Assembly: GCF_013409005.1 (NCBI RefSeq)
Contig: NZ_JACBZO010000001.1
Location: forward strand, 558,001 to 622,000
Reading direction: 5' to 3'
Length of the DNA stretch: 64,000 nt
Source: Demequina lutea
GTDB taxonomy: Bacteria; Actinomycetota; Actinomycetes; Actinomycetales; Demequinaceae
Part shown: positions 45,065 to 48,898 of the stretch, in pieces
How the letters are laid out: each line of letters begins with the position of its first letter
Position numbering within the stretch: position 1 is the first letter of the stretch
Position numbers and translations under genes: made by a program
Notes under the pieces: model-generated
What the model saw: the letters and a program-made list of their open reading frames with translations, nothing else
Told to the model about the DNA's origin: nothing
Databases searched by the model: none

Positions 45065-46744
45065 CTATGCGCCGACGGTAGCCAGCGCGGGTCCGGTCTC
45101 GAGCTCGAGCTCGGGCAGTGCGGTCTTCATGGTGAGCATGCCGCCGTCGAAGTTCGCGGAATCAAACCCGCTCTGCGCGAGGATGCGGTGTGCCAGGTAG
45201 GAACGGAATCCGGATGCGCAGTGGACCCGCACCGGCCGGCCGGCCGCGCGCTCGCGGATGAGCTCCAGGTTCTCGCGAATCTCATCGTGAGGAATGTGCA
45301 TGGCCTCTGGCAAGTGACCGGAGGCGAACTCGCCCGCCGAGCGCACGTCGATGATGAGGGCATTCTCGCGGGCCCATTCGAGGTCCGAGGAGTCCCACAC
45401 CTTGAGCGTGCCCTGCACGGAGTTCTGCATCATGAAGCCGAGCATGTTGACGGGGTCCTTCGCCGAGCCAAACGGCGGCGCGTACGACAGTTCGAGCTCG
45501 GCGAGATCGTCAGCGCCGAAGCCCGCTCGCAATGACGTGGCGAGCACGTCGATGCGCTTGTCGACGCCCTCGCGTCCCACTCCTTGGGCGCCGAGCAGCG
45601 TGCCGTCGGGCGCGAAGACACCCATGAGGTGCACCTGCTGGGCGCCTGGAAAATAGCCCGCGTGGTCGAGGTGGTGCGTGTGGTGCACCACGTAGTCGAT
45701 TCCTGCCTGGTCGAGCATGCGTGGGCTCGCGCCCGTGACGGCGGCGGTGAGGCCGAAGACGCGCACGATGGCGGTGCCGAGCACGGGCTTCGCCTCGTGG
45801 GTCTTGCCCATGATCGCCTCGGCGGCGCGGCGTCCCTGGCGGTTTGCCGGGCCGGCGAGCGGAACGGGGCCCATGACCCCGGTGACCGCGTTGCGGACAG
45901 CGATCGCGTCCCCGACGGCCCAGATGGACGGGTCGTTGGTGCGCTGCTGGCCGTCAACAAGGATGGCTCCGCGCTCGTCGACGTCGAGGCCCGCCGCGAC
46001 GGCGAGACCCGAGTTGGGGCGCACGCCCACCGACACCACGACGATGTCGACGGTCGCTGCCGCGCCGTTCGAAAGCGTGACGGTGACGCCTCGTTCCGCG
46101 GGCTCGATCGCCGTGGCGGCGACACCCGTGAGTACGTCAACGCCGTTTGCGGTGAGCTCGAGCTCGACCAGGCGGGCGAGCTCGGGTGCAAGCACCGGCA
46201 GCACTTGCGGGGCGAACTCCACGAGCGCAACCTCAAGCCCGCGCTCCTTGAGGGCCTCGGCCGTCTCGAGCCCGATGAATCCCGCGCCGAGCACCACGGC
46301 GCTCTTGGCGTCGCCGACGCGCTCAGAAAGCGCAATCGCGTCGTCCACCTGGCGGAGGTGGGTCACCTCGGGCAGGTCGACTCCGGGGATGGGCGGCATG
46401 AACGCATTCGCGCCTGGCGATAGCACCAGCGCGTCATAGGAAACCGTCTCGACGCCGTTGGGGCCGGAGACGGTCACTGTCTTGGCCGCGCGGTCGATGC
46501 TCGTCACCTCCGTGTGGGGGCGGACGTCGAGACCAAGCGAGGACTTCAAGGTCTCGGGAGTGTGGAGCAAGAGAGCCTCGCGAGACGTGATCTCGCCGCC
46601 CACGTAGTACGGAAGCCCGCAGTTTGCGAACGAGACGTAGGGGCCTTTCTCAAAGACGATGATCTCGGCACTTTCGTCGAGACGGCGCGCGCGGGCGGCG
46701 GCAGACATGCCGCCTGCAACTCCGCCAACAATCACAATTCTCAT
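45065..46744 (-). CDS. CoA-disulfide reductase with C-terminal rhodanese domain
   Basis: A 559-residue CoADR-RHD flavoprotein. The FAD motif VIVGGVAGGMSAAARARRL is at residues 4-22, the active cysteine C42 lies in SFANCGLPYY and the NAD motif VVLGAGFIGLETAEAL is near 150. The C-terminal rhodanese domain (from about 450) has the persulfide cysteine in VHCASGFRSYLA. These enzymes reduce CoA persulfide/polysulfide or CoA disulfide. A perfect CsoR/CstR-type palindrome sits about 65 bases upstream, and a CstR-like gene is nearby, pointing to sulfide/persulfide control. Confidence 0.9.
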   Translation of the reverse strand: MRIVIVGGVAGGMSAAARARRLDESAEIIVFEKGPYVSFANCGLPYYVGGEITSREALLLHTPETLKSSLGLDVRPHTEVTSIDRAAKTVTVSGPNGVETVSYDALVLSPGANAFMPPIPGVDLPEVTHLRQVDDAIALSERVGDAKSAVVLGAGFIGLETAEALKERGLEVALVEFAPQVLPVLAPELARLVELELTANGVDVLTGVAATAIEPAERGVTVTLSNGAAATVDIVVVSVGVRPNSGLAVAAGLDVDERGAILVDGQQRTNDPSIWAVGDAIAVRNAVTGVMGPVPLAGPANRQGRRAAEAIMGKTHEAKPVLGTAIVRVFGLTAAVTGASPRMLDQAGIDYVVHHTHHLDHAGYFPGAQQVHLMGVFAPDGTLLGAQGVGREGVDKRIDVLATSLRAGFGADDLAELELSYAPPFGSAKDPVNMLGFMMQNSVQGTLKVWDSSDLEWARENALIIDVRSAGEFASGHLPEAMHIPHDEIRENLELIRERAAGRPVRVHCASGFRSYLAHRILAQSGFDSANFDGGMLTMKTALPELELETGPALATVGA

Positions 46745-46809
46745 GACAACTCCTCAGGATTTCTGGGCCGGAGATGTGGGGTTACCCGGCAACCGCGTCA
46801 GGCTATCAG

Positions 46810-46825
46810 ATACCCCCGGGGGTAT
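46810..46825. promoter_or_regulatory. CsoR/CstR-type operator
   Basis: ATACCCCCGGGGGTAT, a perfect 16-base palindrome, lies between the divergent CoA-disulfide reductase (start 46744) and the gene at 46853. CsoR-family repressors bind G/C tracts flanked by AT/TA of exactly this form. Regulation by the CstR-like protein at 48513-48782 is inferred. Confidence 0.75.
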
Positions 46826-46852
46826 GCGAACCGGAGGTCCCGCTATTCTCTG

Positions 46853-47413
46853 ATGGTGAACCGCTTCCAGCGTGCGCTCTGGCTCGTAGTTGTAGCCGTG
46901 ACCTTGGTCGCGTTTGGACTCGTGATTCCGCTTTTGCCCTCGCTCGGCCCGGTTACCAGGCATCTCGAGGCTGACCACACGACGCAACTTGCGATGGCCA
47001 GCGTGACTCTTCCCGCGGGGTGGGACGTCAACATCGCCTCCGCGTCGCAAAGTCAACCCGTTGCGAGCCTTGGAGGCGTGCAGATCGCGATTACCGATGC
47101 CGTGTGGCTCGGCAAATCGAGTCAACTGGTCACGCATGCGGCCGGCCTGGTCTACTCCCAACCGCCCGTGCTGCCAGACGTCCCCCCCAAGGCTGACGGA
47201 GCCGGCGGCGAGAAGTGGCAGATCCTGCCGGGCCCCAACGCCCCAACCTCAGATCCGCGCCGGGTGATCGTCCTCAGGAGAGACAAGTCCGTCGTGCTCG
47301 TGATCGTTCGTGGTCCCGCAGTCGATGTCGCGGCGGCGTCCGTCGCCATCGACTCCGTTGTCGCGTCCGTCGCCTTCGAAGGCTTCACTGCGAATGTGGG
47401 CGCGGCCTCGTGA
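46853..47413 (+). CDS. Single-pass membrane protein of unknown function
   Basis: A 186-residue protein with an N-terminal transmembrane/signal segment (LWLVVVAVTLVAFGLVIPLL) and an extracytoplasmic region with no motif I recognise (SVTLPAGWDVNIA, SVVASVAFEG). It overlaps the PrsW gene by GTGA, so the two are coupled. ATG 46853 and GTG 46856 are both possible; GGAGG lies about 15 bases upstream. It shares the palindromic operator region with the divergent reductase gene. Confidence 0.6.
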   Translation: MVNRFQRALWLVVVAVTLVAFGLVIPLLPSLGPVTRHLEADHTTQLAMASVTLPAGWDVNIASASQSQPVASLGGVQIAITDAVWLGKSSQLVTHAAGLVYSQPPVLPDVPPKADGAGGEKWQILPGPNAPTSDPRRVIVLRRDKSVVLVIVRGPAVDVAAASVAIDSVVASVAFEGFTANVGAAS

Positions 47414-48516
47414 GGGAGCTCGCGCGGAGACGGTTCGCGGTCACTTTCGCGCCCCGCCGCGTCGGTTGGTGGTTGCTCATCGCTGCGAGCCTCGTCGGTG
47501 CGGGAATGGCCGTATCGGCGCTGCTTCCCGGCGCGAGGGTGTTCCCTGTTGCCGCCGTCATGGGCCTCGTCTTTACCGCTCCGCTCCTCCTCGGGTGGTG
47601 GTTGCTCCTCAGGCTGCCGCAATTGTGGTTCCGCGTCTCCGGGTCGGGCGCGATCGCCGCAATGGCCTGGGGGGCGTTTGCCGCGGCGGGGATCTACGCC
47701 CTCCCGGCCAACAGCGCCCTCATTACCGTCCTTGGCCAACACCTGGGAATCGATGCGGCTCAACAGTGGGGAGCGGCACTCATCGCGCCGTTGACGGAAG
47801 AGACGGGCAAGGCGTTCGGGATTGTGGTGGTCCTTCTCGCCGCGGGCCAGCGACTACGGACGCCGATGGACGCGGCACTGTTGGGCGCGTTCTGCGCCGT
47901 GGGCTTCACCGCGACCGAGGACATGTTGTACGGCCTCAACATCGCCTATCTTAACCTTGGCGAGAACCAGGTGATCTCGACCACGGTGATCTACGCGGCG
48001 CGCGCCATCGTGTTTGGTCCCGTGTCTCACATCGTGTTTTCTTCTGTGGTGGGGGCGGGCATTGGGGTGTTGGCCGTGGGAAGGCGCCGCGGAAGGATCC
48101 CGATGGGAATCGCGCTCATCACCCTCGGGGCGGGTCTCCATGGACTGTGGAATTCCCCGTGGCTCGGCGCGGTGTGGACGAGGGTCGTCTACCTCGTCGT
48201 GGTGCCGTTCGTGGTGTGGGCGGTGCTTCGCTACCTGCGCACCGAGGAGCACCGATGGTTCACCGAGGTGCTGGGTCGGCCAGGGGCTTTGGGCGCCGTT
48301 CCGGCGACGTACGTGGGAACTGTTGGGGCGACGTGGTGGAAGCGTCGGGCGTATCGGAAGGGTGTGGTCGAAGCCTTTGGCGAAGAAGCCCTGGAACTGC
48401 AACGGGTTCTTGAAGCGGAACTCACGGATTTGGCCGAGGCTGTCGACACGGGCGACGACGAATCGAGCGCACGGATCAGGAGGTCGCTCGAAGCCCGACT
48501 TGCGTTGCCTTCCTAA
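47410..48516 (+). CDS. PrsW-family intramembrane metalloprotease
   Basis: A 368-residue polytopic protein (eight or so helices) of the PrsW/CPBP-related family. Conserved elements are PLTEETGKAFGI (glutamates), GFTATEDMLYGL (glutamate/aspartate) and histidines in FGPVSHIVFSS and GAGLHGLWNS, which together form the likely metal site. PrsW proteins cleave anti-sigma factors in other species; no anti-sigma gene is adjacent, but the coupled membrane protein upstream could be a partner or substrate (inference). A cytoplasmic C-terminal tail of about 90 residues follows. Confidence 0.8.
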   Translation: MRELARRRFAVTFAPRRVGWWLLIAASLVGAGMAVSALLPGARVFPVAAVMGLVFTAPLLLGWWLLLRLPQLWFRVSGSGAIAAMAWGAFAAAGIYALPANSALITVLGQHLGIDAAQQWGAALIAPLTEETGKAFGIVVVLLAAGQRLRTPMDAALLGAFCAVGFTATEDMLYGLNIAYLNLGENQVISTTVIYAARAIVFGPVSHIVFSSVVGAGIGVLAVGRRRGRIPMGIALITLGAGLHGLWNSPWLGAVWTRVVYLVVVPFVVWAVLRYLRTEEHRWFTEVLGRPGALGAVPATYVGTVGATWWKRRAYRKGVVEAFGEEALELQRVLEAELTDLAEAVDTGDDESSARIRRSLEARLALPS

Positions 48517-48782
48517 GACAGCGACATGAACATCTTCTCGAGGCGCACGCGGGCCTCGGTCTCGTCTTCGTCCGAGCGGATGCACTGCTGGAGGCCCGCG
48601 GCAATCATGGTAAATCCGGCGCGATCGATCGCTTTCGAGACCGCCGCAAGTTGAGTGACGACGTCCCCGCAGTCACGACCCTCGGCGATCATGTTGAGCA
48701 CGCCTGCAAGTTGCCCCTGTGCGCGCCGTAGGCGCTTGATGACGGGCTCGAGGTCCTCGGACTCCAAGTGAACGGCGGACAT
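48513..48782 (-). CDS. CsoR/RcnR-family regulator, CstR-like
   Basis: An 89-residue all-helical repressor (VIKRLRRAQGQLAGVLNMIA at the conserved N-terminal helix). Cysteines are C38 and C67. The histidine that CsoR uses for Cu(I) between them is not seen, which matches the persulfide sensor CstR type with two cysteines. The start at 48782 has GGAGTGCCA upstream. Convergent with PrsW (four-base overlap of ends). Its likely target is the palindrome at 46810 controlling the CoA-disulfide reductase. Confidence 0.8.
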   Translation of the reverse strand: MSAVHLESEDLEPVIKRLRRAQGQLAGVLNMIAEGRDCGDVVTQLAAVSKAIDRAGFTMIAAGLQQCIRSDEDETEARVRLEKMFMSLS

Positions 48783-48898
48783 TGGCACTCCTTCGTCGCG
48801 CGGGGCGTGATACACCGCTACCGCCTTGAGGATACCCCCACCCGTACCCGTACGGAAAGGCCATTCGTCCCGGCGCCCCGGTGCGCAACAATAGGCAA

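Follow-up and report, generated by a model that had tools for sequence, protein, structure and literature searches.

In this 64,000-nucleotide stretch of the Demequina lutea genome (contig NZ_JACBZO010000001.1, positions 558,001 to 622,000; hereafter the window) we analyzed a block at positions 45,065 to 48,782 that encodes a CsoR/CstR-family repressor, a coenzyme A (CoA)-disulfide reductase fused to a rhodanese (CoADR-rhodanese) and a PrsW-family intramembrane protease around a perfect palindromic candidate operator. We moderately favor the reading that a CstR-type repressor acts on one operator serving both the CoADR-rhodanese gene and the PrsW operon, and that its release by persulfidation would allow both units to be made. 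The CoADR side of this control is well supported by the sequence comparisons described below, and control of the PrsW side is what we infer from geometry and co-occurrence. The core circuit of CstR, operator and CoADR is of a known kind, CstR-type circuits being known to control persulfide-clearing enzymes, and the link to PrsW would be the new part; none of the open-access papers listed in literature searches joins, by its title, PrsW to a persulfide sensor. If the operator also drives the PrsW unit, regulated membrane proteolysis would become linked to reactive sulfur, and the inducing condition would provide a first handle on pairs of a small membrane protein and PrsW, which occur also in other families of the order. 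The elements of the block are the following.

45065 to 46744, minus strand: CoADR-rhodanese, a CoA-disulfide/CoA-persulfide reductase fused to a rhodanese, 559 aa, with Cys42 and Cys509.
46800 to 46805, minus strand: likely -10 element (TAGCCT, with TGA before it) of the putative CoADR promoter, 4 bp downstream of the operator.
46810 to 46825: perfect palindromic predicted operator ATACCCCCGGGGGTAT, 16 bp, fitting the consensus ATACCN6GGTAT of ScCsoR from Streptomyces coelicolor.
46844 to 46849, plus strand: likely -10 element (TATTCT) of the putative PrsW operon promoter, whose -35 would fall on the operator.
46856 to 47413, plus strand: membrane-anchored protein of 185 aa with a likely leaderless GTG start, an N-terminal helix and a predicted Mog1/PsbP/LpqN-like domain.
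47410 to 48516, plus strand: PrsW-family intramembrane protease, 368 aa, with EETGK at 130 and HGLWN at 244.
48513 to 48782, minus strand: CsoR/CstR-family repressor, 89 aa, with Cys38, Gly63 and Cys67.
48832 to 48848: imperfect site ATACCCCCACCCGTACC upstream of cstR, with sites at the same position in relatives.

The regulator scores well above the cut-off of PF02583 (CsoR/DUF156; 76.6 bits vs 22.8, E 2.1e-21) and is the only match to this family in the 3.1-Mb genome. The initial annotation had described it as keeping two cysteines, 38 and 67, and lacking the copper-ligand histidine, as in CstR, and the alignment bears this out: the Cys-His-Cys copper site of CsoR and RicR is not present, since its histidine is replaced by Gly63, the sole histidine of the protein is His5, and Cys38, Gly63 and Cys67 are unchanged in all 11 same-family sequences aligned. 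The nearest solved sequences are 7mq1 and 7mq3, deposited as CsoR, which we take to be the pneumococcal CstR. That the regulator could sense copper (or nickel) in the manner of CsoR or RicR is very improbable: its top NCBIfam match is indeed RicR, at a score far below the cut-off (41.9 vs 175 bits), and CsoR/RicR operators resemble the palindrome, but glycine occupies the position of the sensor histidine and none of the 11 genomic sites examined precedes a copper gene, as read from the translations, whereas several precede sulfur genes. Copper or nickel sensing was therefore rejected on the basis of Gly63 and the nature of the neighboring genes.

We do not regard a second CsoR-like match in the genome (G000:C1:462744-462923; 60 residues at 35% identity) as a functional regulator. 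This stretch, which contains an in-frame TAG and has arginine at both sensor-cysteine positions, was not detected in the PF02583 profile search of the genome, and could be either what is left of a CsoR gene or a fortuitous resemblance. It lies in frame with a truncated protein whose sole strong Pfam domain is HATPase_c (L136:2738-3424; G000:C1 about 462237-462923), and a DUF302 gene adjoins it.

A perfect operator between CoADR-rhodanese and the membrane-protein/PrsW operon, as claimed in the initial annotation, was located at 46810-46825, where ATACCCCCGGGGGTAT is the only place in the window within three mismatches (shuffled sequences gave a mean of 0.10, with at least one match in 10 of 100 shuffles). 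The annotation had also suggested searching the whole genome for the palindrome, and this search recovered further copies, several of them before sulfur genes. At up to three mismatches the pattern occurs at 18 places vs 3 for the reversed control, ATACCCCNNGGGGTAT occurs exactly at five places vs none, and ATACCN6GGTAT six times vs once. Genes with one of the five exact sites before them or overlapping their start region are the CoADR/PrsW units and those for a YgaP-like transmembrane protein, a 59-aa Cys-rich protein, a rhodanese lipoprotein and a CPVC-motif membrane protein. Weaker sites stand upstream of genes for a CoADR-rhodanese-TusA-DsrE protein (at 4 bp), a thioredoxin (at 47 bp), a relative of sulfide:quinone reductase (at 56 bp; top PDB match with an E of 1.1e-37) and a sulfite reductase (at 248 bp). 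A candidate operator of the ATACCN6GGTAT type is thus predicted before sulfur genes, as expected for a CstR-type regulator. These assignments cover 11 of the 18 places, namely all 8 with at most two mismatches and 3 of the 10 with three, and the weaker part of the regulon list is a selected sample, two of the three weaker sites having been picked by hand.

Upstream of cstR itself, ATACCCCCACCCGTACC is a possible weaker autoregulatory operator. At the corresponding position some relatives carry a symmetric palindrome resembling ATACCCC...GGGGTAT, and others an asymmetric conserved element resembling ATACCCCnnCCCGTACC.

Several genes at or near the genomic sites were recorded as observations in their own right. 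The 59-aa Cys-rich protein (MCSPATCPTCGKATW...; L008:4086-4265) belongs to no Pfam family and starts 38 bp behind an exact operator. The CPVC-motif membrane protein (L011:3332-3844), likewise outside any Pfam family, has the exact operator at its start region and an OsmC gene adjacent. An extracytoplasmic function (ECF) sigma factor with an RskA-type anti-sigma factor is encoded 2.2 kb from an exact operator (L008:498-1843); the pair is a possible candidate substrate of PrsW, to be taken as a lead only.

The enzyme on the left of the operator contains the Pfam domains Pyr_redox_2, Pyr_redox_dim and Rhodanese, and its best match among solved structures is the coenzyme A-persulfide reductase 8a56 (E 1.4e-154), probably the Enterococcus faecalis enzyme; both results confirm the identity proposed in the initial annotation. 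The combination of a CoADR domain carrying Cys42 with a rhodanese domain carrying an active-site cysteine is that of a predicted CoA-persulfide reductase. The protein scores below the equivalog cut-off for CoA-disulfide reductase of NCBIfam TIGR03385 (402.7 vs 578.8 bits).

In order to place the circuit in the context of the family, we analyzed 47 genomes. A match to the regulator is present in 43 of them, as is the exact operator (reversed control, 0/47), and the two largely coincide: the operator occurs in 42 of the 43 genomes with a regulator match and in one of the four without (G027, G036, G037, G046). Where no PrsW pair is present, CoADR begins 38-43 bp beyond the operator in all 16 loci measured, and the core is therefore made up of regulator, operator and CoADR. 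The gap measurement was applied to the seven loci with the pair and to L051-L075, giving 6 and 16 distances, respectively; it missed L021, L056, L064, L067 and L069-L074, where an exact 16-bp match or a recognized start was lacking, and L021 (G032) was measured separately. A TANNNT element follows the operator by 3-4 bp in six of the seven loci with the pair (TGTGGT in G039), and such an element is also found after the operator in 15 of the 16 measured loci without it (L075 being the exception). A CstR-type persulfide regulon in D. lutea is well supported by these comparisons, and the circuit of CstR-like regulator, operator and CoADR-rhodanese first put forward by the initial annotation gains support from its sequence, from the ScCsoR operator and from the sites at sulfur genes across the genome.

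A second palindrome, GGGACC[A/T]AGGTC, was observed no more than 20 bp upstream of the operator at 11 of the 21 CoADR/CstR loci lacking the PrsW pair (L051-L054, L057-L061, L063 and L065) and at none of the seven loci with the pair. It resembles a response-regulator box of the DosR/OsdR type.

On the right of the operator, a PrsW related to the window protein is encoded near cstR in seven genomes of the genus (G000, G033, G034, G039, G012, G032 and G026), and in all seven the perfect operator stands between CoADR and the PrsW pair. The distance from the end of the operator to the GTG of the membrane-protein gene is nearly invariant in six of them (30 bp in G000 and G032, 31 bp in G012, G033 and G034, 32 bp in G039), and the distance to CoADR is 65 bp in G000, 75 bp in G039, 73 bp in G012, 68 bp in both G033 and G034, and 37 bp in G032. 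PrsW identity to the window protein is 57-63% in the close relatives and 40% in G032, with a range of 36-63% over the whole set; G032 is the only distant, telling test, because the other five spacing cases are close relatives. The membrane protein probably starts at GTG 46856 rather than at ATG 46853, GTG being preferred because it is the codon common to the close relatives. A TANNCT element is found 6-7 bp before this GTG in six of the seven genomes, so that an operator ending 30-32 bp before it would cover the -35 of the PrsW-operon promoter, and the transcript looks leaderless.

An alternative would be that CstR controls CoADR-rhodanese only, the PrsW operon being constitutive and the joint intergenic region an accident of gene order. 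We regard this as the less probable explanation, though one to be reckoned with. It is in keeping with the operator standing 38-43 bp from CoADR in every measured locus without the pair, with G037, where a comparable start and -10-like element accompany the pair without any operator, and with the broken spacing to the pair in G026. It does not readily account for an operator-GTG distance that is held at 30-32 bp in six genomes, including the distant G032, while the operator-CoADR distance there ranges from 37 to 75 bp, or for the predicted overlap of the operator with the -35 of the PrsW promoter. Our preferred reading of joint control has a number of observations weighing against it. In the 16 measured loci without the pair the operator serves CoADR alone, and PrsW could therefore be a bystander. 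The spacing is kept in six genomes, but five of these are close relatives, whose distances to CoADR likewise vary little (65-75 bp), and in G026 the operator is present but the called start of the membrane protein is 106 bp away. G044 has a regulator match without an exact operator, and G036 an operator without a regulator match, in a genome that is 85% complete. Within the D. lutea genome, L014 (with an aldehyde dehydrogenase) and L010 have sites but show no known sulfur role (the site at 713611 in L010 is inside a called open reading frame, the start of which may be wrong), and the cstR promoter carries the imperfect site only. Finally, the order-level control described below is small outside the family, with seven loci. 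Shared control of the PrsW side, offered as an inference in the initial annotation, is thus strengthened by the spacing in six of seven genomes and by the missing operator in G037, and weakened by the broken spacing in G026.

To assess how the operator is distributed with respect to PrsW, we examined pairs at other loci. In G037 the pair lies between two nad genes with neither CoADR at the locus nor a regulator match, and no operator was found at the pair or anywhere in that genome. More distant PrsW proteins are encoded in 35 further genomes of the genus, from which 22 loci were fetched; none has an operator at up to three mismatches within about 1.5 kb. At 15 of these 22 loci, a relative of a Cys/Met-metabolism enzyme dependent on pyridoxal phosphate (PLP; tblastn with the L024 gene) is encoded ahead of the pair. 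The small-membrane-protein/PrsW pairs at loci L024-L045, in other genomes of the genus, are of a second kind, often located between genes for the Cys/Met PLP enzyme and a P-type ATPase. With the window protein as query (E 0.001), no second PrsW was detected in the eight genomes that have the pair at the nad locus. Among 31 PrsW loci from a contig database, the operator is present at five (L105-L109, each with CstR and CoADR) and absent at 26; five of the seven same-genus genomes with the pair are probably of the same species as L105-L109. A search across the order matched 203 of 297 genomes, and of the best 30 loci, which were fetched, two have the operator (G000 and G034) and 28 do not, comprising 21 of the same genus (overlapping with the 22 above) and 7 from other families, where the operator was found at 0/7. 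In five of six examined loci from other families, PrsW comes after a gene for a small membrane protein, and the pair is therefore older than the proposed CstR control. We know of no substrate for such pairs.

The whole block lies between a gene for a FAD_binding_2/Succ_DH_flav_C protein, which we take to be nadB, and the quinolinate phosphoribosyltransferase gene nadC. Alternatively, the pair may have long resided in the nadB-nadC interval and now be disappearing from the genus, any CstR control over it then being of little function. A nadC tree of 27 rows, from which G012 was left out (only 19 residues on its contig), requires about three changes of PrsW presence and would fit repeated loss of an old pair, gain versus loss being undecided by the tree. 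Many genomes of the genus lack the pair here and have another one elsewhere, and the G037 PrsW (L022:1321-2400; G037:C1:693921-695014) is split between two reading frames beyond residue 299, through either decay or a sequencing error. Nonetheless we consider this alternative unlikely, as the PrsW frame is open across the whole match in the seven genomes with CstR, the catalytic motifs are kept, and the start geometry is conserved in six genomes even though PrsW is only 36-63% identical.

The protease, which the initial annotation had placed beside a membrane protein, is confirmed as a PrsW-family protein by PF13367 at 47410-48516 (114.8 bits vs a cut-off of 23.5, E 4.7e-33), and it falls below the equivalog cut-off of NCBIfam NF033739 (20.6 vs 225 bits). 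E130, E131, K134, H244 and N248 are unchanged in all eight sequences, so that the EExxK and HxxxN motifs are kept. For the partner protein no Pfam family scored above cut-off, with weak matches only. A structural model built with eight sequences (mean predicted local distance difference test score, pLDDT, 83.9) comprises one N-terminal helix and an alpha/beta domain, which VIA-align superimposes on the cyanobacterial PsbP 2xb3 with a Z of 10.2 and a root-mean-square deviation of 3.8 over 133 residues, Mog1 and LpqN being near; the best Foldseek match has an E of 1.5e-3 and a template-modeling (TM) score of about 0.5. The predicted likeness to Mog1/PsbP/LpqN is one of fold, not of function. An assignment of the partner as RseB/MucB was not used, the match (Z about 6) being too weak.

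The mechanism that we propose builds on the genes, residues, operator, genome-wide motif set and conserved spacing described above. Its inferred part comprises binding, chemistry, promoters, repression of both sides and the role of PrsW. When sulfane sulfur is lacking, the CstR-type repressor would occupy the palindrome at 46810-46825, which overlaps the putative divergent promoters just upstream of the CoADR -10 and over the -35 of the PrsW operon. Persulfides or polysulfides would modify Cys38 and Cys67, the repressor would leave the DNA, and both CoADR-rhodanese and the PrsW pair would be made; CoADR-rhodanese would then clear CoA persulfide, and the PrsW pair would act on a substrate at the membrane. 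By extension, a persulfide sensor might activate an intramembrane protease whose extracytoplasmic partner is Mog1/PsbP-like, directing reactive sulfur to membrane proteolysis, perhaps of an anti-sigma factor, as a second layer of the sulfide response; this extension is speculative, and we consider it rather improbable as it stands.

Compared with known systems, the protease is the more distant component. Bacillus subtilis PrsW cleaves the anti-sigma factor RsiW. The protein described here shares the PF13367 family and the EExxK motif with it, and differs in scoring far below the NF033739 cut-off and in being preceded by a membrane protein with a predicted Mog1/PsbP-like fold. The target set of Staphylococcus aureus CstR differs from that predicted for the regulator in D. 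lutea. S. aureus CstR itself is like this regulator a two-cysteine persulfide sensor of the CsoR family (cited in PMC7533328). According to the available part of the same source, S. coelicolor ScCsoR (SCO0620) binds ATACCN6GGTAT and requires both Cys37 and Cys66 for its release by polysulfide, so that the two circuits have in common a two-cysteine CsoR-like repressor, the operator and a rhodanese target (PMC7533328). One ScCsoR site is given there at -48 from the transcription start, and the site here would extend from -46 to -31 if GTG 46856 is the start; the targets described in that part are a persulfide dioxygenase, a rhodanese, TauE and the regulator, with PrsW and CoADR absent from them, and the main text nowhere uses the term 'CoA' (PMC7533328). 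In E. faecalis, a different phylum, CstR controls a CoA-persulfide reductase (CoAPR), with no protease among what the available text describes, and this enzyme, like the one encoded here, ends in a rhodanese domain and uses catalytic Cys42 and Cys508, corresponding to 42 and 509 in D. lutea (PMC9405070). By analogy, this CstR-CoAPR pairing and the best match to 8a56 support CoADR-rhodanese as a probable CstR target in D. lutea.

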